DNA of 64,000 nt from IMG/VR virus record IMGVR_UViG_3300022933_000279, positions 62,001 through 126,000 of that record; one strand, given 5' to 3'. Under the pieces are notes generated by a model. That model worked only from the letters and a program-made list of their open reading frames with translations. It ran no database searches and had not been told where the DNA came from. The translations under genes were made by a program, and so were the position numbers. Shown one piece after another: positions 177-62,653 of this stretch (positions are counted from its first letter, which is position 1; every line of letters starts with the position of its first letter). Source of the stretch: a virus.

Positions 177-1188
177 AGAAGATTTTACTAAGATACCTTG
201 GCATGATATTGTAGCTCTCGGCACTAAGACAATGCTATATCGAGATACATTTACCATATCTTGGTTGTTAGGTAGATTTTGTAACTATAAATGTTCTTAT
301 TGTTGGCCATACGCCCGGGCAGATAAAAAAGATCACAGACCAACGGAACTATGTCTTAAAACTATTGATGAAATAAAACGTCAAGCGAGAGATCAGGGAT
401 TTAATTCTTTTAACTGGTCTTTGTCTGGAGGTGAACCAACCTTTCATCCAGGTTACTTAGATATACTTCAGCACTTAGCTGATGACGAGCATGCTAAAAG
501 ACAAAGAATACATATGACTTCAAACTGTTCTCGTAAAATAAAATGGTTTGAAACATATATTAAATATGCACAAAAATTTGACAAAGCATCAATTACAGCA
601 TCTGCTCATTTTGAACATTTAAATACCCAAGACAAGATAGCTGACTTTGCAGATAAGTTAGTTTTTCTTCAAGATAATGGAATTAGAATAACTATTAATA
701 TGGTGATGATCCCAGAGAGATTTTGGGCACTGACAGATCATGTTTTATATTTTAAAGAACGTGGTATTCACACTACATTAAAACCACAATCAAATCCAAC
801 AGCAACAAAAGTTGTAGAAGGATATACTCAGGGACAATTAGATATTTTACATAATGATTCTAGACCATCTGATCGAGAGATAGATTTAATAGATTCAAAA
901 GGAAATATATATGAATTGGACCAAGCTGAAAGATTTAACGCGTTTAATTTTAATGAATTCAAAGGCTGGGACTGCACGTCGGGTTTTCGTAGTATTATTA
1001 TACGCGAGCCTTGTGGGAGCATTAAGCGGTCATATTCTTGCAGTGATCTACCTTTAGGAAATATAGAAACTGGATTCAAATTATTTGATAAACCTATGCC
1101 CTGCATAACTGATAATTGTGTAAGTTCAGCAGATAGTAAAATTCCTAAACGAAAGCCAGAAAGTAATTATCCATTATGGAAAAATTAA
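163..1188 (+). CDS. Radical SAM protein with SPASM-like Cys-rich C-terminus
   Basis: About 341 residues. A CxxxCxxC motif (C40, C44, C47 in FCNYKCSYCW) is the hallmark [4Fe-4S] site of radical SAM enzymes, and LSGGEP downstream is the SAM-contacting GGE motif. The C-terminal third carries scattered cysteines (WDC, PCG, YSC, MPC, NC) resembling an auxiliary-cluster SPASM or twitch domain. ATG 163 is preferred over the in-frame TTG at 151 because it sits at the end of the preceding frame. It is the first of three consecutive radical SAM genes and overlaps the next by 13 bases. SPASM-type enzymes modify peptides or small molecules; the substrate here is unknown. The radical SAM call is secure, the role is not. 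Confidence 0.85.
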   Translation: MRLSEEDFTKIPWHDIVALGTKTMLYRDTFTISWLLGRFCNYKCSYCWPYARADKKDHRPTELCLKTIDEIKRQARDQGFNSFNWSLSGGEPTFHPGYLDILQHLADDEHAKRQRIHMTSNCSRKIKWFETYIKYAQKFDKASITASAHFEHLNTQDKIADFADKLVFLQDNGIRITINMVMIPERFWALTDHVLYFKERGIHTTLKPQSNPTATKVVEGYTQGQLDILHNDSRPSDREIDLIDSKGNIYELDQAERFNAFNFNEFKGWDCTSGFRSIIIREPCGSIKRSYSCSDLPLGNIETGFKLFDKPMPCITDNCVSSADSKIPKRKPESNYPLWKN

Positions 1189-2288
1189 AACACTTCTGTG
1201 CATTACCCTTTACTCAATTTACTGTCTCATCATTTAATGAGTATCAGTTATGTTGTGATAATACGGGTGAATCAGGAATGTATAGTGATCAACATTCTAT
1301 CTTAGAATATTTTAACTCTGATTATATTAATAAACAAAGATTATCATTTCTTAAAAATAAAAGATTAGATATATGTCAGTCCTGTTGGAAAAGAGAAGAT
1401 AAAGGTTTAAATTCAAGAAGATTAGAAAGTTTAAAAGGAAATTATAGAGAGCAAGTAAGAAGATATAAACAAGGATTACCTTTAATTCCAAATCATCCTG
1501 TTTTTAAAATTAAGTTTGGAAATTTATGTAATCTTAGATGTATAATGTGTGGTCCGCAATCATCATCTGCATGGGCCCAGCATAAAGAAAAACATAGTGA
1601 AGGTACATGGCCGATTTATGAAAATACATTCAATGAAGGAACATATGAAGATTTAAAACAAATATTACCTAATGTAAGTCGTATTATTATATCAGGAGGT
1701 GAGCCTTTAATGAATGATAGATATTATGATTTTCTTGAATGGCTTATTGGATATAAGTTCGCAAGTAAATTAAAAATAACAACTCTTACTAATGCTACGA
1801 AAATACCAGAACATTTGTTTCAATATAAAAAAGCTTTTAAACGATTATCTTTTAATATATCAGTTGATGGTATAGGAAAGAAAGATGAGTATATTAGAAC
1901 AGGGCAGGTTTGGGAAAAGAAAAAAGAGAATATTTTCAAACTACAACAAAATTTTATGATTGGATTTGAAGTAACAGTGCAGGCACTTAATATTGGTTAC
2001 TTAGATAATATTCAAGGTTATTTAAAAAACAATTTTGGAAGAATGTCTCCATTAACAAACATCTTAGTAACTCCAAAATATTTTGATTCCACCAGCTTAC
2101 CACAAGATATAAAACAACTCTACTTAAATAAAAATACAAAATATATTCCTGAGCGGATTACAAATCTATTAAGAACACCTACAAAAGGTAAATCTTTTCA
2201 AAAAGGTTTAAGGTTTCTTAAACTGTGTGATAAAAGAAATAATACAAATTTCTTAGAAGAGTGGCCCGAATTTAGACCGTATGTATAA
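1176..2288 (+). CDS. Radical SAM protein with N-terminal twitch-like Cys segment
   Basis: 370 residues. The core motif is C118, C122, C125 (LCNLRCIMCG), followed by ISGGEP. Ahead of the core is a Cys-rich segment: C8 in FCALPF, CC at 26-27, and C67/C70 (CQSC). This resembles twitch-domain-containing radical SAM proteins, in which extra cysteines bind an auxiliary cluster. The start overlaps the previous gene and the stop overlaps the next ATG by 8 bases, so the three radical SAM genes are translationally coupled. The substrate is unknown. Glycosyltransferases and methyltransferase-like genes downstream suggest sugar or cell-surface modification, but that is inference. Confidence 0.85.
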   Translation: MEKLKHFCALPFTQFTVSSFNEYQLCCDNTGESGMYSDQHSILEYFNSDYINKQRLSFLKNKRLDICQSCWKREDKGLNSRRLESLKGNYREQVRRYKQGLPLIPNHPVFKIKFGNLCNLRCIMCGPQSSSAWAQHKEKHSEGTWPIYENTFNEGTYEDLKQILPNVSRIIISGGEPLMNDRYYDFLEWLIGYKFASKLKITTLTNATKIPEHLFQYKKAFKRLSFNISVDGIGKKDEYIRTGQVWEKKKENIFKLQQNFMIGFEVTVQALNIGYLDNIQGYLKNNFGRMSPLTNILVTPKYFDSTSLPQDIKQLYLNKNTKYIPERITNLLRTPTKGKSFQKGLRFLKLCDKRNNTNFLEEWPEFRPYV

Positions 2289-3321
2289 TCCCGATCAAAT
2301 AAAACATATTCATTTAGAACCCACCCAAAGATGTCAAGCCGCATGTCCAATGTGCGATAGGACAAATAATCCTCGTATAAAAAATGCTGAATTGACCTTA
2401 GATAATTTCATGCATATGGTGGATATTGATTTTGTGAAGCAATTAAATTCATTATTAATGTGTGGTAATCACGGTGATCCTATTATCTCATTACATGCTC
2501 TAGATATTTTAAGATACCTTAGAGTCAACAACCCAGATATACACCTGCAAGTTACTACAAATGGTGGTGCCAGAGACGAAGACTTTTGGAGAGAATTAGC
2601 TTTCATTTTAGGTAGTAGAGGTAAAGTACAATTTAGTGTTGATGGCCTGGAAGATACAAATCATTTATATAGAGTAAATGTTAATTGGAAAAAAATTGAA
2701 GAAGCAATGGATGTATTTACTCAAGCAGGTGGAAAAGGTGTTTGGGTTTATTTAATATTTGAACATAATGAACATCAAGTTGAAGAAGCAGAACAAATGG
2801 CCAAGTTATTTGGATTAGACTTTATAAGAAAAAAGACTGGAAGGTGGGTACAGAGCTATAAAGGTAAGAAGATTGATAAAAAGATAACCAACAAAGGGAA
2901 TGAGATTAAACCAGCTACAAAACCAGAGCATCAGAATCAAAGCGTAAATAAATATGATAGATTGGTTAAGACTCATGGTTCCTTTCAAGAGTATTTAGAT
3001 CAAACATCCATCAAATGCAAATCCCTTATAACTAATGAAATATTTATCAGTGCTGAAGGTCTTGTAACTCCTTGCTGTTGGACTCATGGACGATTTTATA
3101 AAGCATATCAAGAGATTGGTGAAAATCAGATTTGGTCTTTCGTAGATGACGTGAAAAATATAAATGCTCTTCATACTCCGTTACGAGAAATCATTAAAGG
3201 AAACTTTTTCGCACAGCTGGAAAAGAGCTGGAATCTCCCTTCATGTTCTGATGGGAAATCTGTTGTATGTGCTGAGAAATGCGGTTCAGGGTTTGATGCT
3301 TTTAGAGATCAGTGGAAATGA
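2281..3321 (+). CDS. Radical SAM/SPASM-like protein
   Basis: 346 residues. N-terminal C18, C22, C25 (RCQAACPMCD) gives the radical SAM cluster site. A GGARDED-type stretch and FSVDGLED fit the TIM-barrel core. The C-terminal part has CC in TPCCWTHG and further cysteines (SCSDG, VVCAEKCG), typical of SPASM domains that hold extra Fe-S clusters. It is the third radical SAM gene in a row and is not a close copy of the other two, so the set looks like a pathway rather than a simple duplication. Its stop overlaps the following ATG (ATGA). The reaction is unknown. Confidence 0.85.
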   Translation: MYNPDQIKHIHLEPTQRCQAACPMCDRTNNPRIKNAELTLDNFMHMVDIDFVKQLNSLLMCGNHGDPIISLHALDILRYLRVNNPDIHLQVTTNGGARDEDFWRELAFILGSRGKVQFSVDGLEDTNHLYRVNVNWKKIEEAMDVFTQAGGKGVWVYLIFEHNEHQVEEAEQMAKLFGLDFIRKKTGRWVQSYKGKKIDKKITNKGNEIKPATKPEHQNQSVNKYDRLVKTHGSFQEYLDQTSIKCKSLITNEIFISAEGLVTPCCWTHGRFYKAYQEIGENQIWSFVDDVKNINALHTPLREIIKGNFFAQLEKSWNLPSCSDGKSVVCAEKCGSGFDAFRDQWK

Positions 3322-7472: not shown

Positions 7473-8275
7473 TACATGTTTATTCAGATAGTTTTGGTGA
7501 AACACATGGTGCTGGTACTTGGCCTGCAAAGCTTGAATTTATTAGAGAAGAGGAAGTAAAAATTAACGGGTCTGGAGGGACCGGTCCAAATTGGAGCTTA
7601 AGAAAATTAATTAATGATTTGGAAACTTCAAAGATAAAAAATAAAGATAGTGTAATTGTTTTACTGTCCGATCAGAAGAGAATGGAATTTCCTTGGTTGG
7701 AAAATGATTGGTTAGCAGATGGTATTTTTTTATTAGCAGAAGATATTCCAGAAGAAATAGTAAAACACCTTAAAGGAGGAACACCAGAATTTGACAAATA
7801 TAGATATAAGAAATATGAATATGAAATAAGAACAATTGCACAATCATTAGGTCCCATGTTTTTATATGAGAACGTCAAAAATATAACATTTTTACATTTA
7901 CTTTCTCAACAGTTTAGTGAAATAAATTTTTTGGTATTTACTTGTTTTAGTCTCAATCATTTTACTTCAAGATATAAAAATTTTAATATTACATCTACAA
8001 AATTATTATATGATTTGGATTTTGAAGAATTAAATTCATCTAATTTTTATTATGTATCAACTCCGGTTTCATATATGGCCGGCACATATGATGGTGATGA
8101 AATGTTGAATAATCATATGACTGTAGAACAAAACGAAAAATTTGGTATCTTTTGTAATGACATATTAAATAATAATACACCCGATACTAGCTGGTTTGCT
8201 TATAAGGCATATGATGATCCTTATGCAGAACATCAAGGATCAGAGCCGCCAGCACCACTTTTCATTTACGATTGA
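7469..8275 (+). CDS. SGNH/GDSL-hydrolase-like protein, copy 1
   Basis: About 268 residues from ATG 7469, which overlaps the previous stop (ATGA). The N-terminus HVYSDSFGETHGAG corresponds to block I of SGNH hydrolases (catalytic Ser in DSF). GSGGTGPNWSL supplies the Gly and Asn of blocks II-III, VIVLLSDQKRMEF follows, and NNHMT near the C-terminus may carry the catalytic His. The family hydrolyses esters, often O-acetyl groups on sugars. This copy reads YSDSF where the next has YGDSF, and NNH where the next has DNH, so it may be the less active partner. It keeps the PMFLYENVKNI block shared by both copies. Confidence 0.6.
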   Translation: MIHVYSDSFGETHGAGTWPAKLEFIREEEVKINGSGGTGPNWSLRKLINDLETSKIKNKDSVIVLLSDQKRMEFPWLENDWLADGIFLLAEDIPEEIVKHLKGGTPEFDKYRYKKYEYEIRTIAQSLGPMFLYENVKNITFLHLLSQQFSEINFLVFTCFSLNHFTSRYKNFNITSTKLLYDLDFEELNSSNFYYVSTPVSYMAGTYDGDEMLNNHMTVEQNEKFGIFCNDILNNNTPDTSWFAYKAYDDPYAEHQGSEPPAPLFIYD

Positions 8276-8276
8276 T

Positions 8277-9095
8277 ATGACAATACACATTTATGGTGAT
8301 AGTTTTGGAGTAATTTGTAAACATGATAAAACATGGCCGGCTGAACTATCAAGATTAAAAAAAGAAGAAATTGATGTTAAAGCAGAATCGGGTAGTGGAC
8401 CTAATTTTTCTTTAGATTTATTAATTGCAGATTTAGAAAATAGTTCCATTAAAGATGATGATACAATAGTTATTCTGTTATCCGATCAGAAGAGAATGGA
8501 GTTTCCTTTTGTAAGGAATAATGAACATGTTACAGGTGTTTTTAGAATAGCTGAGGATAATAAAGATTGGAAACATCCATTTGAGCCAGATAATAAAGAT
8601 GATCCTTGGCCTGGAGTACAGAATCAGTCCTACTTAAATGATTATAAAAAGGAAACAAAAATTATAGCACAAACATTAGGGCCTATGTTTTTATATGAGA
8701 ATGTTAAGAATATATCTTTTTTACATTTGTTATCTTTAAATTTTAAAAAGATAAGATTTGTGGTATTTACTTGTTTCAGTTTAGATCATTATCTAGGAAC
8801 TTATAAAAACTTCAATATAAATTCAACTGATTTTTTACACAAAATAAAATTTGAATCTTTAGATAGTGAAAATTTTGATTATGTAAAAATTCCTGTAGGA
8901 CATATTGTAGGCCTTGATGATACTGGTATTCAATTAGATAATCACATGACACCAGATAAAAATTTAAAATTTGGTAAATTAGTATATGATATAATAATGA
9001 AAAATGAGATTGATAGATCCTGGTTTAATACACATCCCTATGATGATCCTTTTGAATACCAGTATCCATTAGAACCCATTTTCATATACGATTAA
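8277..9095 (+). CDS. SGNH/GDSL-hydrolase-like protein, copy 2
   Basis: 272 residues from ATG 8277, one base after the previous stop. IHIYGDSFGVI is a better match to SGNH block I (GDS) than the first copy, with SGSGPNFSL and LDNHMTPDKN for the oxyanion and His regions. It shares VILLSDQKRMEFP, TLGPMFLYENVKNI, VFTCFSLDHY and the C-terminal PYDDPFEY/FIYD blocks with its neighbour, so the pair is a tandem duplication. An esterase that trims acetyl groups from a glycan would fit the surrounding glycosyltransferases. It ends one base before a perfect late promoter. Confidence 0.62.
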   Translation: MTIHIYGDSFGVICKHDKTWPAELSRLKKEEIDVKAESGSGPNFSLDLLIADLENSSIKDDDTIVILLSDQKRMEFPFVRNNEHVTGVFRIAEDNKDWKHPFEPDNKDDPWPGVQNQSYLNDYKKETKIIAQTLGPMFLYENVKNISFLHLLSLNFKKIRFVVFTCFSLDHYLGTYKNFNINSTDFLHKIKFESLDSENFDYVKIPVGHIVGLDDTGIQLDNHMTPDKNLKFGKLVYDIIMKNEIDRSWFNTHPYDDPFEYQYPLEPIFIYD

Positions 9096-9109: not shown

Positions 9110-9375
9110 GGTTGTTGATATAATTGGATAGCTTTTTAGGACGTGGGTTCGATTCCCACCGCCTCCACCAGAGAGATATAACTTAGATGTTGTATTTCGC
9201 TGATGGGGGCGTAACGGTATTCGACTGAGAGTGAAGGGATTAAGGAGACCTAAGGGTGGTAACCTATAACCAATAATCTAATCGCAGATAATACCGATTA
9301 TTTTCCAGCACAAGTGGCACTCGCCGCTTAATCGCTGATGGGCTTATGATTGTGCCTGGAAACAGAAACAATCAA
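9110..9375 (+). ncRNA. ssrA: Permuted (two-piece) tmRNA
   Basis: The acceptor piece comes first. A T-arm (GTGGG at 9143-9147, loop TTCGATT, CCCAC at 9155-9159) is followed by the 3' acceptor strand 9160-9166, discriminator A and encoded CCA at 9168-9170. A 34-base spacer follows, then the coding piece starting GGGGGCG at 9205-9211. Those seven bases pair with 9160-9166 and leave a G·U at the third pair, the alanine identity element. Next come the tmRNA-typical TATTCGAC, a resume codon in the context TAATC-GCA, the tag ending ALAA, and a hairpin (9348-9373) with a GAAA tetraloop. A possible P2 helix pairs 9133-9139 with 9225-9231. Exact 5' and 3' ends are inferred. The known role of tmRNA is rescue of stalled ribosomes by trans-translation with SmpB. 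Confidence 0.93.
9284..9331 (+). other. tmRNA proteolysis-tag reading frame
   Basis: From resume codon GCA (9284) to TAA (9329-9331) the frame reads ADNTDYFPAQVALAA. With the charged alanine, the appended tag would start Ala-Ala. The hydrophobic ALAA end is the type recognised by ClpXP-like proteases. At 15 encoded residues it is longer than the 10-residue E. coli tag. Confidence 0.9.
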
Positions 9376-9394: not shown

Positions 9395-9910
9395 ATGGCT
9401 GAATATAAAAATGAAGAACCCTGCGAATTTGTATACCGCGTTAAAGCAGTATCAAAAGTAGTAGATGGAGATACAATAGATTGTTGTTTCGATTTAGGAT
9501 TTGATGTAATGTTTCATAGTCGGGTTCGATTATTGGGTATAGATACTCCGGAATCCAGAACAAGACATAAGAATGAAAAGGTGTATGGTTTACTTAGTAA
9601 AGACGCACTTAAATCATGGGTGCATTGGGCTGTTATGGATGATAGAGATGATATTGATATTGAAATTAGATGTCCTGAAGCAGATAGTCGTGGAAAGTTC
9701 GGAAGAATTTTAGGCGAAGTTTGGGTAAATTGTAATGCAGAAGGAGAGCACGGTGGTTGGACTAACGTTAACAAATGGATGTGTGAGAACGGACACGCTG
9801 TTGGTTATTGGGGTCAAAATAAAGATGATGTTAAAGGTGAACATTGGGCAAATAGAGAATATCTTTCCGAACAAGGTAAAATGGCACTTCTTCAATGGGA
9901 TGAAGATTAA
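9395..9910 (+). CDS. Staphylococcal-nuclease-like (SNase/TNase) protein
   Basis: 171 residues. VVDGDTIDC, VRLLGIDTPESR and the downstream YGLLSKDAL segment match the thermonuclease fold: the calcium-binding Asp region, the first catalytic Arg and the IDTPE signature. Later Arg residues (ADSRGKFGRILGEVW) include the second catalytic Arg region. No signal peptide is visible, so it should act in the cell, for example in host DNA breakdown or DNA repair. AAAGG lies just ahead of the ATG at the tmRNA end. It overlaps the next gene by one base. Confidence 0.85.
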   Translation: MAEYKNEEPCEFVYRVKAVSKVVDGDTIDCCFDLGFDVMFHSRVRLLGIDTPESRTRHKNEKVYGLLSKDALKSWVHWAVMDDRDDIDIEIRCPEADSRGKFGRILGEVWVNCNAEGEHGGWTNVNKWMCENGHAVGYWGQNKDDVKGEHWANREYLSEQGKMALLQWDED

Positions 9911-57013: not shown

Positions 57014-58008
57014 TGTTAGGACAATATTGGTATCACGGATTAACAAGAAAATATGTTTCTATATTTGGAACCATTTTTAACGACATCTATTTAAAGCGTA
57101 AGAATGCTTCTGATGAATTTGTCGAAACATTAAAAGTTCCCTTAGCATACGGTCCGAAACAAAAATTTATGACTAGGATCTCGGGCGATGCTAATCTAGA
57201 CAAAAAGGTGGGGATGCAACTGCCGAGGATGGGCTTCGAGATGACTTCCATGTCATACAGTCCCGAGAGAATGTTGCATCCCCTTAACCAACAAAAATCA
57301 ATGTGGAAGGGTCAAATTGGAGTAGTTAAAAGTCCAGTACCATATGATTACGCTTTCACATTGTCAGTGTTTGTAAAAAATGCGGATGACGGAACACAAA
57401 TAATTGAACAGATAGTACCGTTTTTTCAACCCGATTTTACAGTAACTATAAATGCACTTCCAACAATGGGAATCAAGTTAGATGTTCCTATTATTTTAAA
57501 TGGTGTTAATATTGAAGATTCATATGAAGGTGATTATCAAACACGAAGAGCAATAGTTTGGACATTAGATTTTACAGTTAAGGGTTTTCTTTATCCGAAT
57601 ATTAAAGGTAAAGGATTTGGTGACGGTAGTGATGATCAGGCAACAGCATTAATACGCACATCAATTATCAATTTTCATATAATGCCGTATAGAGATCCAG
57701 GCTCGGTAGACGCCGAAAGAATTTTATTAGAATCAGATACAGGGTTTGGAAAAGGTAGGGATGAAATATTAAATGAAGATGATTCCAAAATGTTATTAGA
57801 AACAACTAGAACAGATATTAATGCAACATTAGTAAAATCAAGATTTACATCTAAAGTACCTATAGATGTACCAGCTGGCGATGATTATTATGAACCAACA
57901 GAAACAAGAGATTTCTTTGCAGAAGGTCTTGAATGGGATCCAGCTACAGGTACTGATACAATGGGTGGTACATTAGATATAAACGCATTCGGTAATTCAA
58001 ACAAATGA
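57013..58008 (+). CDS. 15: Tail sheath stabiliser/tail completion gp15-like
   Basis: 331 residues (T4: 272). The N-terminal QYWYHGLTRKYVSIFGTIFNDIYLKR and LPRMGFEMTSMSYSPERMLHPLNQ match T4 gp15. IIEQIVPFFQPDFTVTINA and RRAIVWTLDFTVKGFLYPNIKG are the next conserved blocks, as in T4 (IVEQILPYFQPHF and RIEWSLTFEVNGWMYP). gp15 caps the tail tube and joins it to the head. A perfect 11-bp inverted repeat lies within the coding region (57210-57220 and 57273-57283). Confidence 0.92.
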   Translation: MLGQYWYHGLTRKYVSIFGTIFNDIYLKRKNASDEFVETLKVPLAYGPKQKFMTRISGDANLDKKVGMQLPRMGFEMTSMSYSPERMLHPLNQQKSMWKGQIGVVKSPVPYDYAFTLSVFVKNADDGTQIIEQIVPFFQPDFTVTINALPTMGIKLDVPIILNGVNIEDSYEGDYQTRRAIVWTLDFTVKGFLYPNIKGKGFGDGSDDQATALIRTSIINFHIMPYRDPGSVDAERILLESDTGFGKGRDEILNEDDSKMLLETTRTDINATLVKSRFTSKVPIDVPAGDDYYEPTETRDFFAEGLEWDPATGTDTMGGTLDINAFGNSNK

Positions 58009-59271: not shown

Positions 59272-60389
59272 TCATGGTTGGCAAACTTCTTGCATTTTTA
59301 ATATTTTTAGTTATATCAGCATATCCCGGTAAAGCCAAAGATTCTCCTCATGATCGTACTGGCGCAGTAGTTAGCAAAATAAAACAAATAGAATACATTC
59401 CAACATATGGATCAACGTTTAAAAGAGTAAAAGAACGTGGTCATATAATATGTGGTGCCAAAGATTCTATGCCAGGTTTTGGAGAAGAGCTTTGGGATGC
59501 AGAAACAGGCGTATTAAAATTTCAGGGCTTTGATATAGATATTTGTAGGGCAATTGCTACTGCAGTATTCGGAGATAAGGAAAAGGTTGAATATGAAATA
59601 ATAGATGGTAAAACAAGATTTAGTTATTTAATAGATGGAACGGTTGATGTGGTATCGGCTACTGTTACATACACATATACTAGAAATGTTCTTAAAAAAT
59701 TAGAGTTCATGCCCACTACATATTATGATGGACAAGGATTTATTGTTCGAAAGACTCTTGGTGTATCATCTGCAAAGCAAATGGATGGTGCAAGAATATG
59801 TTATAGTTCAACCGGAACTGCCGCAAAAAATACTAAGGATTTTTTTACAAAACATTTTCTTAATTATGTTCCAGTTGTGGTGCCAGTTGGAGAAAAATCT
59901 AAAGATTATTACTTAGATCGTAAATGTGATATGTATGGCACAGATCGCTCCGGTTTAGCATCTAATAGAATTGGTTTTAAAAATCCGGAACAACATGTGA
60001 TCCTTCCAGAAATTATTTCAAAAGAACCTCTTGGTCCAGTAGTAAAATATGGAGATCAACAATGGTCTGATATTGTAAGGTGGACAATATATGTTCTGTT
60101 CATTGCAGAAGAAATGGGATTAAATTCAAATAATATATCTAAATTTAAAAATAATATAGATCCAAGTATACAACGATTTATGGGCGAATTAAATGGTAAT
60201 GATCATCCTCATCTAGGGGCTAAATTAGGATTAGATGCTACATGGGCATATGAAGTTATTAAACAAGTTGGAAATTATAAAGAAATATATGAAAGAAATC
60301 TTGGTGAAAATACACCTCTAGCTCTTAAACGTGGGCTAAATAAATTGTACACTGAAGGTGGTTTATTATATGCACCTCCATTAAAATAG
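59268..60389 (+). CDS. Periplasmic amino-acid-binding protein (AapJ/SBP_bac_3-like)
   Basis: 373 residues. MVGKLLAFLIFLVISAYPGKAKDS is a signal peptide, cleaved near AKA-D. HIICGAKDSMPGFGEELWDAETGVLKFQGFDIDICRAIATAVFGDKEKVEYEIID and TRFSYLIDGTVDVVSATVTYT follow the N-terminal lobe of general L-amino-acid-binding proteins (AapJ). ICYSSTGTAAKNTKDFF and WSDIVRWTIYVLFIAEEMGL are the second lobe and C-terminal helix. The family delivers amino acids to an ABC transporter; no permease or ATPase genes lie nearby, so it would have to serve a host transporter. Residues in the binding site differ from the usual RNTTWT block. Confidence 0.88.
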   Translation: MIMVGKLLAFLIFLVISAYPGKAKDSPHDRTGAVVSKIKQIEYIPTYGSTFKRVKERGHIICGAKDSMPGFGEELWDAETGVLKFQGFDIDICRAIATAVFGDKEKVEYEIIDGKTRFSYLIDGTVDVVSATVTYTYTRNVLKKLEFMPTTYYDGQGFIVRKTLGVSSAKQMDGARICYSSTGTAAKNTKDFFTKHFLNYVPVVVPVGEKSKDYYLDRKCDMYGTDRSGLASNRIGFKNPEQHVILPEIISKEPLGPVVKYGDQQWSDIVRWTIYVLFIAEEMGLNSNNISKFKNNIDPSIQRFMGELNGNDHPHLGAKLGLDATWAYEVIKQVGNYKEIYERNLGENTPLALKRGLNKLYTEGGLLYAPPLK

Positions 60390-60396
60390 GGAAAAA

Positions 60397-60714
60397 ATGC
60401 CAGATGAATTAGTCGATAAAATGTCAAATGAAATAGCCGCAGCAGAAGATAACTTACGAATATGGACAGAAAAATATGAAATGGAAGTTAGGCGTGAAGC
60501 AGTGACTGCACAAGCGGATGCAAAGATGGCACTTGACGCGGCAAAAATAAGATTAGAGAAGTTGACAGCACAATATAAACCAGAATATTTAACTAGGTTT
60601 GAAGCACTTCCAGTTCCACCAAAGTTTAAGCCACCATTGCCTGTAATACCAGAAGAAATTAAAAAAGAAATTCTACCAAAGGTAACCAGAAGTAAGAAGA
60701 AAAAGAAAAAGTGA
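60397..60714 (+). CDS. Hypothetical coiled-coil protein with poly-Lys tail
   Basis: 105 residues. A helical N-terminal part (MSNEIAAAEDNLRIWTEKYEMEVRREA) is followed by a Pro-rich segment (PVPPKFKPPLPVIP) and a C-terminus of consecutive lysines. AGGG precedes the ATG. It may bind nucleic acid or membranes through its basic tail. It sits between an exported protein and the SAP-like gene; no family is recognised. Confidence 0.5.
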   Translation: MPDELVDKMSNEIAAAEDNLRIWTEKYEMEVRREAVTAQADAKMALDAAKIRLEKLTAQYKPEYLTRFEALPVPPKFKPPLPVIPEEIKKEILPKVTRSKKKKKK

Positions 60715-60753
60715 GTTAATAAAATATAAACATTATAATTAAAAAAGGATGAT

Positions 60754-60978
60754 ATGTCTTGGATTGGGAATATAATTAAAAAAGTTTTTAAAAATGAAGG
60801 TTTAAAACAACCAGAACCTGAACCTAAAAAAGCTGAGAAAAAAGTAAAAAAGAAAAATTTGAAAAGTATGACAAAAAAACAATTAGAGTCATACGGTAGA
60901 GAATTAGGTGTCGAATTGGATAGACGACATAATAAAGCTAAATTAATTGCACGACTGGAAGAGGCGGTTGCAAATTAA
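60754..60978 (+). CDS. SAP/HeH-like small DNA-binding candidate
   Basis: 74 residues. A Lys/Pro-rich N-terminus leads to LKSMTKKQLESYGRELGVELDRRHNKAKLIARLEEAV, which has the helix-extended loop-helix pattern of SAP and HeH domains (KxELxxxxxxxGxxxDxxxxKxxLIxxL). Such domains bind DNA. AAAGG precedes the ATG. The gene overlaps the start of the next gene. Confidence 0.65.
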   Translation: MSWIGNIIKKVFKNEGLKQPEPEPKKAEKKVKKKNLKSMTKKQLESYGRELGVELDRRHNKAKLIARLEEAVAN

Positions 60979-61252
60979 TAATACAATAAAAGAGTATTGG
61001 CGCGATTGGGCTGCACTCGTTTATTTGTTTATCTGCTTAGTAGATTTTTTTGTAGCGCCTTTGATATGGAACTTAATGATGGCGGAATATTGTGACACAC
61101 ATGATTGTATAAAAGAAGGTGTAACACGATGGATTCCTTTGACACTTGAAAGTGGCGCCATGTTTCATCTTTCATTCGGAGCAATCCTTGGTGCAACGTC
61201 ATTTAATAAACATAAAGAGATTCACGCTAGCACTAAGTCTACTGATACTTAG
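60968..61252 (+). CDS. Holin-like membrane protein (3TM holin type)
   Basis: About 94 residues if started at TTG 60968, which has GGAAGAGG just upstream; the only other in-frame start is a TTG at 60947. A hydrophobic helix (AALVYLFICLVDFFVAPLIW), a Cys-containing loop (YCDTHDCIK) and a second helix region (MFHLSFGAILGATSF) resemble holins of the 3TM type, with the conserved WIPLTLESG ahead of the last helix. It overlaps the lipase gene by 62 bases, an arrangement typical of lysis genes. Confidence 0.65.
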   Translation: MQINNTIKEYWRDWAALVYLFICLVDFFVAPLIWNLMMAEYCDTHDCIKEGVTRWIPLTLESGAMFHLSFGAILGATSFNKHKEIHASTKSTDT

Positions 61253-61934
61253 TGGATGTGCTGAAAATAAAACTGATTCAAATAATGATCTTGATAGTGG
61301 AGATAAATCAAATCTACCAGTCACAATATCATCTCTGATTGAACACGCAGAGTATTGTAAAGTAATTTACGATAGTGGTGGTAATCAAAAAGATGAAGTT
61401 GCATTTGATGTAAAACAAGATAGTGGAATAACAATAATTATTATTAGGGGCACTGCCAATGCAGAAAATGTCCAATCTGATATTGATGTAAGATTAGTAG
61501 ATGATGCAGTCACAGGAATCAAACTTCATAAAGGATTCAGAGATGCGTCTTTAGGTGTTATGGAGATTATTGATAGAGATCATACAGTTGAACATACTGT
61601 ACATATTACAGGTCACAGTTTAGGTGGAGCTATTTCACAAATAATAGGAATGTGGCTTCATAAAAGAGGTCACAATGTTCAAATCTATTCTTACGGATCA
61701 CCAAAAGTTACTTATCAAATTATGTCTGGAGGACAGCCCACTCATTGGCGTGTGGTTCGTCTTAGCGATCCTATCCCTTTTACTCCTCCCTGGCCTTATG
61801 CTCATACCGGTCTTTTTATAGATAGTCAGACTTTAGATTGGGGTCCAGATAATGATAATGGATTAATTTCTCAAACAGATGGCTTGACTCACGCCATAGC
61901 AAAATATGTGGAAACATTGAAAGCCGCTCAATGA
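61191..61934 (+). CDS. Lipoprotein lipase (Lipase_3 fold)
   Basis: About 247 residues from GTG 61191, which has GGAG upstream and gives a complete lipoprotein signal: basic RHLINIKR, hydrophobic FTLALSLLILSG, and the lipobox cysteine C23 in LSGC. ITGHSLGGAIS holds the catalytic S143 (GxSxG), LSDPIPFTPPW the Asp (D193), and YAHTG the His (H205). This is the Lipase_3 layout. The mature protein would be lipid-anchored and face the periplasm or outer membrane. Its start is nested in the holin-like gene. Membrane damage at lysis, or lipid scavenging, are the likely roles. Confidence 0.85.
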   Translation: MQRHLINIKRFTLALSLLILSGCAENKTDSNNDLDSGDKSNLPVTISSLIEHAEYCKVIYDSGGNQKDEVAFDVKQDSGITIIIIRGTANAENVQSDIDVRLVDDAVTGIKLHKGFRDASLGVMEIIDRDHTVEHTVHITGHSLGGAISQIIGMWLHKRGHNVQIYSYGSPKVTYQIMSGGQPTHWRVVRLSDPIPFTPPWPYAHTGLFIDSQTLDWGPDNDNGLISQTDGLTHAIAKYVETLKAAQ

Positions 61935-62653
61935 AGGGTGAAGAAAGACCTTACTTAAAAAAATATGGAATAGAAGAAAAGGTTAACCCATTTGAAAACA
62001 TTCCAGAAGATAGAACAGCCGTAGATAACATTTTAAGAGTGAATCACGGTAATCAAATGAGATTAAACTTGATGGCTGATGCTAAAGCTAATATTATGAT
62101 TACTGTTTCTTCTATTGTTTTTTCAGTCACTATAGCTAATTTAGATAATGAAATAATGAAATGGCCTTTAATAACATTTGCAGTTGGAAACTTTTTTACA
62201 TTATTATTTGCCATATTTGCAATTATTCCAAAAACAGCTTATCCTAAGCTACCACATTCCAATGAAATTGATAGAAAATCGCCTTGGTTTAATCCTTTAT
62301 TTTTCGGACATTTTGCACATATTGATATTGATGAATATAAAAAAGATTACGCAGAAAAATTGTTGACTGATGATAAAATATATGATACTATGGTAGGAGA
62401 TATATATGGCCAAGGAAAAGTACTTGCACTTAGTAAATATAAGTATCTCAAATGGTCATATAATTGTTTTCTTGGAGGGATGGCATCAGCAATGGCAGTT
62501 TTTGCATTACAAGGGGCTGCAGCAGATTTTATATTAGAGTATGGATTATGGTTAAAAGATATTATATTTGAGGAAATATCATTTACTTTTGATGGACTGA
62601 GAGAAGTAGCCTGTCAAATAAGTACTCCATGTCGACAGAAATATAACTTATAA
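61931..62653 (+). CDS. Pycsar effector-like membrane protein (DUF5706/PycTM-like)
   Basis: 240 residues. HGNQMRLNLMADAKANIMITVSSIVFSVT, a second helix (PLITFAVGNFFTLLFAIFAII), NPLFFGHFAHIDIDEYKKDY, MVGDIYGQGKVLALSKYKYLKWSYNCFLGGM and a third helix are the DUF5706 pattern of Pycsar transmembrane effectors. In bacterial Pycsar systems such proteins open or disrupt the membrane on binding cCMP or cUMP made by a cyclase. No cyclase gene lies nearby here. It overlaps the lipase gene by 4 bases, so a lysis-related or superinfection-exclusion role is possible. Confidence 0.72.
   Translation: MKGEERPYLKKYGIEEKVNPFENIPEDRTAVDNILRVNHGNQMRLNLMADAKANIMITVSSIVFSVTIANLDNEIMKWPLITFAVGNFFTLLFAIFAIIPKTAYPKLPHSNEIDRKSPWFNPLFFGHFAHIDIDEYKKDYAEKLLTDDKIYDTMVGDIYGQGKVLALSKYKYLKWSYNCFLGGMASAMAVFALQGAAADFILEYGLWLKDIIFEEISFTFDGLREVACQISTPCRQKYNL

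Follow-up and report, generated by a model that had tools for sequence, protein, structure and literature searches.

The locus at positions 9110-9375 of the window, by which we mean the whole 64,000-nt stretch of viral DNA analysed here, raises two questions: does a phage encode a working tmRNA in two permuted pieces, and what can the spacer between these pieces hold? The earlier note had listed a T-arm, an encoded CCA, a 34-base spacer, a GGGGGCG pairing with a G·U third pair, a resume codon and a tag, and all of these are in the sequence. Our data indicate that the locus is very probably a functional phage two-piece tmRNA, from a lineage whose spacer slot often holds a small gene. The Rfam model tmRNA_permuted (RF04321) matches 9110-9331 over its whole length (model positions 1-213) with 99.7 bits against a gathering score of 47 (E 3.2e-18 for a search space of the 64-kb window), and this is its only match in the whole virus record. 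ARAGORN calls a tmRNA* at the locus with the tag ADNTDYFPAQVALAA, in agreement with the tag read from the sequence. ARAGORN and the alpha-tmRNA covariance model had been proposed as checks; recognition by a covariance model and the ARAGORN tag stood, whereas alpha_tmRNA (RF01849, gathering score 50 bits) is absent from both the gathering-threshold and the lax tables for the window, the lax table leaving four lower-scoring overlapping clan matches undisplayed. None of the older clade-specific models is over its cut-off at the locus, where tmRNA_permuted stands alone at the gathering threshold; the best of them at the lax threshold, beta_tmRNA (RF01850), scores 55.7 bits against a cut-off of 84. 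Among relatives, alpha_tmRNA is over its cut-off in 6 of the 20 scanned (L166, L167, L168, L139, L150 and L090) and in 2 of the 18 scanned loci that bear a gene in the spacer (L149 and L253).

All parts of the gene lie on the + strand. From the RF04321 alignment and the sequence, the acceptor piece (9110..9170) consists of the 5' arm, the T-arm (GTGGG-TTCGATT-CCCAC), the acceptor 3' strand CGCCTCC at 9160-9166, an A, and the encoded CCA at 9168-9170. It is followed by the intervening spacer of 34 nt (9171..9204), which the predicted fold, an ORF scan and comparison with relatives indicate to be without a credible ORF. The coding piece (9205..9375) is supported by the sequence, by RF04321 and by compensatory changes in relatives, and its 3' limit of 9375 is the one given in the earlier note, not a mapped mature end. 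Its 5' strand GGGGGCG (9205-9211) is complementary to 9160-9166 with G·U as the third pair, so that G3·U70 corresponds to 9207 with 9164. ARAGORN and the tags of the lineage place the tag reading frame at 9284..9331, with resume codon GCA at 9284 and stop codon TAA ending at 9331. Downstream of it, a 3' hairpin found by eye (GATTGT...ACAATC, 9348..9373) encloses a GGAAACAGAA-like motif; this motif was seen again downstream of the tag in relatives, by eye and without statistics.

The processing, charging and tagging steps of bacterial tmRNA are well established, and G3·U70 is the identity pair for alanylation. By analogy, we infer that the same steps take place at the window locus. The precursor would fold through pairing of 9205-9211 with 9160-9166, and host tRNA-processing enzymes would excise the 34-nt spacer, leaving an acceptor and a coding piece that the acceptor stem keeps together. 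Charging of the tmRNA by host alanyl-tRNA synthetase would rely on G3·U70, host SmpB would load it onto stalled ribosomes, and the tag, with its ALAA ending, would direct the rescued peptide to host proteases. A role in ribosome rescue or tagging during infection is plausible on the same grounds, and such roles have already been discussed for phage tmRNAs (PMC9004378).

The virus record containing the window has 150,810 bases and belongs to a T4-like phage. Among the genes around the tmRNA are those for T4-like baseplate wedge, hub lysozyme, tail and head-closure proteins. Directly upstream lies an ORF (8196..9095, + strand) without a PHROG match, ending 14 nt before the tmRNA match, and downstream is an endonuclease gene (9395..9910, + strand) assigned to phrog_452, whose relatives led to tmRNA-bearing sister contigs. 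Judged by the baseplate wedge protein, its closest relatives among annotated phages are the Methylophilales phage Melnitz and the Pelagibacter phages HTVC008M and Mosig, with about 37% identity in this protein; they too are T4-like marine phages with a permuted tmRNA, and all three match RF04321. The claim that this is a phage-encoded permuted tmRNA is therefore upheld by the virus record, the T4-like gene neighbours and these three isolates. ARAGORN finds no tRNA genes in the virus record. No other Rfam family is over its cut-off in the window and five further stretches of the record, a scan that lies outside record positions 60,001-62,000. When window DNA was compared with annotated phages by distant blastn, the best 20 of 128 rows all fell on the endonuclease gene, and in a second blastn the best 60 of 482 rows were short T-arm-like matches (tRNA or tmRNA genes) or unannotated stretches in other phages. 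Two tandem radical SAM domain genes are also present in this phage genome, at window 1176-3321.

The earlier note overrated the novelty of the locus. Phage tmRNAs in two pieces have been in the literature since 2022, when they were reported for the marine phage Melnitz together with a survey that counted 53 of them among phage genomes, 50 of which came from marine or aquatic samples (PMC9004378). PMC12656738 and PMC11915505 mention phage tmRNAs as well, and the latter gives 11,946 permuted sequences for the published tmRNA database. By itself, the copy in the window adds one more to the published phage two-piece tmRNAs. It differs from that of Melnitz in its tag and gene neighbourhood. Melnitz also has a glutamine riboswitch after the coding piece, whereas the window record has none in the all-Rfam scan, which excludes record 60,001-62,000. 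The Melnitz spacer is 142 nt long, compared with 34 nt in the window, and a 54-aa ORF that begins in it extends 42 nt into the coding piece. The two-piece tmRNAs of Caulobacter and Sinorhizobium show the same permuted gene order as the window and two mature pieces, which in S. meliloti are 82 and 204 nt (PMC2245857), but unlike the alphaproteobacterial two-piece tmRNAs the window locus is under the older clade-specific Rfam cut-offs. A tmRNA-like RNA of phage DS6A is also phage-encoded and is described in PMC11915505 as being without a tag frame, whereas the window has one. Group I introns in tmRNA genes are likewise extra sequence removed from the mature RNA (PMC11915505), but the slot considered here is the ordinary spacer of a permuted gene, holding dissimilar small ORFs. 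The predicted 23-aa ORF of S. meliloti contains the tag, with a start codon irrelevant to it (PMC10117765), a different situation from ORFs nested in the spacer. Searches of the open PubMed Central literature brought up no title or abstract dealing with spacer genes in permuted tmRNA. The new part of our results is these nested genes at the level of the lineage, which are under protein-level selection in their sequence and would be expressed.

Relatives were gathered through endonuclease homologues (80 of 108 kept), homologues of the upstream protein and pattern scans of viral contigs, giving at least 133 distinct permuted tmRNA parses. A tmRNA beside the endonuclease is not universal. ARAGORN was positive at 30 of the 80 kept endonuclease loci and the pattern finder added five (L081, L115, L142, L144 and L149), and Rfam found no tmRNA in 20 of the remaining loci; many of the loci end early. 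On one contig (L112 and L195) an endonuclease locus is without a tmRNA match and a gene-bearing tmRNA lies elsewhere; the tmRNA thus changes position among relatives. Members of the lineage were recognized by tags that begin with A[ND]NxDY, with a finder that demanded a tag ending in AA. The window belongs to this lineage by tmRNA body and tag type, its own spacer being free of a nested ORF. Among the matches listed, a complete ORF lies inside the spacer in 58 of 71 distinct lineage tmRNAs, compared with 0 of 60 other permuted tmRNAs, of which 19 have spacers of at least 60 nt. Here an ORF counts as a spacer ORF if it has 25-31 aa and a stop codon 1 or 9 nt ahead of the coding piece, or if it has at least 50 aa; the 71 are distinct sequences, some 1-2 bases apart, and leave out wrong second parses of L201 (spacer 48) and L167. 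In three of the 60 non-lineage tmRNAs (Melnitz L166, L260 and L280) an ORF begins in the spacer and enters the coding piece. The ATG of the nested ORFs is 7-20 nt past the CCA (9 nt in 33/58), preceded by a Shine-Dalgarno-like stretch in 56/58 by a loose motif. From the stop to the first G of the coding piece there is 1 nt in 37/58, 9 nt in 15/58 and 14-16 nt in 6/58. A riboswitch carried in the spacer was considered and rejected: Rfam found none within the long spacers of the 20 and 18 loci scanned, and the sole glutamine riboswitch is that of Melnitz, after the coding piece. Intron families were also not over cut-off in these 20 and 18 loci.

The nested ORFs encode three dissimilar kinds of small protein. 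Class A (49/58 ORFs, 47 distinct coding sequences) has 26-30 aa with one hydrophobic segment, the best 19-residue Kyte-Doolittle mean being about 1.6-3.1. Class B (7/58) is hydrophilic, with 50-57 aa and DLWD at the end in six of seven, and class C (2 in the count of 58) is basic, with 53 aa and the motif CTLCT. When one protein of each class was compared with annotated phages by tblastn, there was no match, in a search that divergent members could escape. Homologues of class B were found at 7 loci, of which 5 are tmRNA spacers and 2 are not, as judged by eye from the flanks; for class C there were 24 loci, of which 6 are tmRNA spacers and 18 lie outside them. Because homologues of classes B and C occur free-standing, the spacer slot appears to take up ordinary small phage genes. 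In the window phage itself, a free-standing 52-aa homologue of class C is encoded at record 57,791-57,949 (L066 17791-17949; record G000), with 51% identity over 39 residues and E 1.4e-7. This homologue (CTLCT...RWLGN) lies between two genes that look to be of radical-SAM type, from a cysteine motif seen by eye, and it is possibly a modified-peptide precursor. A class B-like match at window 25008 (E 0.004), within the gene for the baseplate lysozyme, was taken as chance.

Several other explanations of these data have to be considered. The window locus might be a non-functional relic of a host ssrA gene, and ssrA fragments can indeed travel with prophage excision (PMC9004378). We regard this as very improbable. 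The full-length RF04321 match is intact, the gene occurs in many viral contigs and three isolates, and compensatory pairing in the relatives is perfect. For the latter, 68 distinct related sequences were located without demanding pairing: a motif with acceptor positions 5 and 6 free and position 7 fixed as G gave the coding piece, and the T-loop and the TCC-N-CCA end gave the acceptor piece. At positions 5-7, 204 of 204 cells are paired, compared with a mean of 158.2 and a maximum of 171 when partners were shuffled (2000 shuffles), a statistic to be read with the relatedness of the sequences, which are not independent. The acceptor stem exists in seven variants among the 68 sequences, and U70 stands opposite G3 in all 71 lineage members among the matches listed. 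Loss of the acceptor pairing or of the tag frame in close relatives had been named as evidence against a tmRNA; the pairing is retained through compensatory change, and a tag of related type is found in 71 distinct relatives among the matches listed, a count that is not a test of tag loss since the finder demanded the AA ending and the group was defined by the tag start. A decoy or inhibitor of the host tmRNA, which would occupy SmpB, AlaRS or ribosomes and shut off host rescue, would be consistent with the absence of any SmpB match at a threshold of E 0.001 from the phage record, which may itself be incomplete. A decoy, however, has no need of a complete tag frame with a degradation-type ending, as is present in the window and in 33 distinct lineage versions, although tag-less members would escape a finder that demands AA. 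Such a role is therefore unlikely. Among the matches listed the lineage has 33 distinct tag peptides, the window's included, and the window tag was found only in near-identical copies (the window, L015, L050, L057 and L063).

The spacer ORFs in relatives could also be by-products of a structured, U-rich spacer and no genes at all. The spacers are indeed under structural constraint. The whole 34-nt spacer of the window is predicted to form a hairpin continuing the acceptor stem, and in relatives the spacer ends are predicted to pair with each other, lengthening this stem. Spacer nt 2-8 after the CCA pair with the last 20 nt with a mean probability of 0.83, compared with 0.46 for shuffled tails (15 tail shuffles per spacer); pairing is above this control in 55 of 55 distinct spacers, narrowly in some (L142, L240), and its probability in L113 is only 0.20. 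For nine representative proteins no Pfam match is over cut-off, Sarcolipin coming nearest with 16.7 of the required 26.4 bits (E 0.0059), and PHROG matches go no lower than E 0.031. The compared sequences are in many cases closely related. On the other hand, an ORF spans 55 of 77 distinct spacers of at least 60 nt, compared with 2.89 expected from dinucleotide shuffles. In 18 disjoint pairs of class A sequences the differences at codon positions 1, 2 and 3 are 43, 18 and 89, the synonymous fraction is 0.516 against 0.212 for neutral change (P 7.5e-16), and dN/dS is 0.22, indicating purifying selection; these pairs supersede a pooled dN/dS of 0.41 over 194 overlapping pairs. The free-standing homologues of the two other spacer proteins also argue against by-products, an explanation to which we give little weight. 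We infer that the nested ORFs in relatives are translated.

All 20 relatives scanned, with and without a spacer ORF, pass the RF04321 cut-off. The tmRNA is also intact in gene-bearing members, since 18 of 18, chosen for their spacer ORF, pass it over the full model. Three dissimilar small proteins are placed between the same RNA pieces, with starts and stops that spare both pieces. It seems, then, that protein genes can be housed in the spacer that a split housekeeping RNA gene discards. A bolder reading, which we put forward tentatively and hold to be somewhat less than an even chance, is that such a locus is a gene with two products. The excised spacer would serve as mRNA, and translation of the nested membrane micro-protein would be tied to folding or processing of the precursor. 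The Shine-Dalgarno-like stretch, right after the encoded CCA, lies within the paired nt 2-8 of gene-bearing spacers and would be held in a helix with the spacer 3' end. The ribosome-binding site of the nested ORF is thus predicted to be sequestered, and this might influence its translation. On this two-product reading the slot would be repeatedly refilled with dissimilar small phage genes and emptied again, as in the window. The lineage offers a compact system in which to study the coordination of RNA processing and translation on one transcript.

The history of the slot was followed on a tree of tmRNA bodies, spacer excluded, with 71 rows, one of which is a wrong duplicate parse (L201). Slot content changes at least 17 times on this tree, and the slot switches between having an ORF and having none at least 10 times, each count being perhaps one too high. 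Of the inner branches, 16 of 68 are starred; when only these are counted, class A must still change at least 9 times and the state without an ORF at least 8 times. In the smallest starred group the window is joined by L272, which bears class A and whose long branch is flagged as unsure; the next starred group has 14 rows, with an ORF in all except the window. The 12 tmRNAs most similar to that of the window all have an ORF (12/12). Nearest by identity are L077 and L079, of class B, with 95% in the acceptor piece and 81-82% in the coding piece; they are placed elsewhere on the tree than the window, and the short tmRNA sequences of this lineage may be mosaic. The simplest reading of these comparisons is that the window slot is probably empty through loss of a nested ORF.

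Gene-bearing spacers were also sought outside viral contigs. A scan of genome contigs for spacers of 80-110 nt gave at least 118 stretches, 12 of which passed a loose stem test. Among the matches listed, ARAGORN found a tmRNA in 4 of these 12, and all four have a nested ORF and a lineage-type tag. These four loci (L377, L379, L332 and L401) come from contigs of three MAGs, which carry the labels Flavobacteriales (two contigs), Chloroflexi and Saprospiraceae. In L401 a nuclease, an exonuclease and a glycosyltransferase match phage families; of three proteins tried in L377, two have no match and the third falls in a phage family of unknown function. The lineage-type tmRNAs on MAG contigs are likely to be misbinned phage. 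The idea that gene-bearing spacers are general in bacteria was accordingly set aside, as the confirmed cases among the matches listed are all of lineage type and probably misbinned phage. A host search of genome contigs with a Melnitz- or Mosig-like tmRNA pattern gave no match.

These results also bear on annotation, because marking the whole stretch as tmRNA can hide an ORF. The 54-aa ORF of Melnitz lies at MZ577097.1 46,096-46,257, overlapping SsrA, which alone is annotated there in all four Melnitz records. In L121, a hydrophobic ORF starting after the CCA seems by eye to cross the 5' part of the coding piece and to end just before the tag, a possible overlap of a protein gene and a tmRNA.
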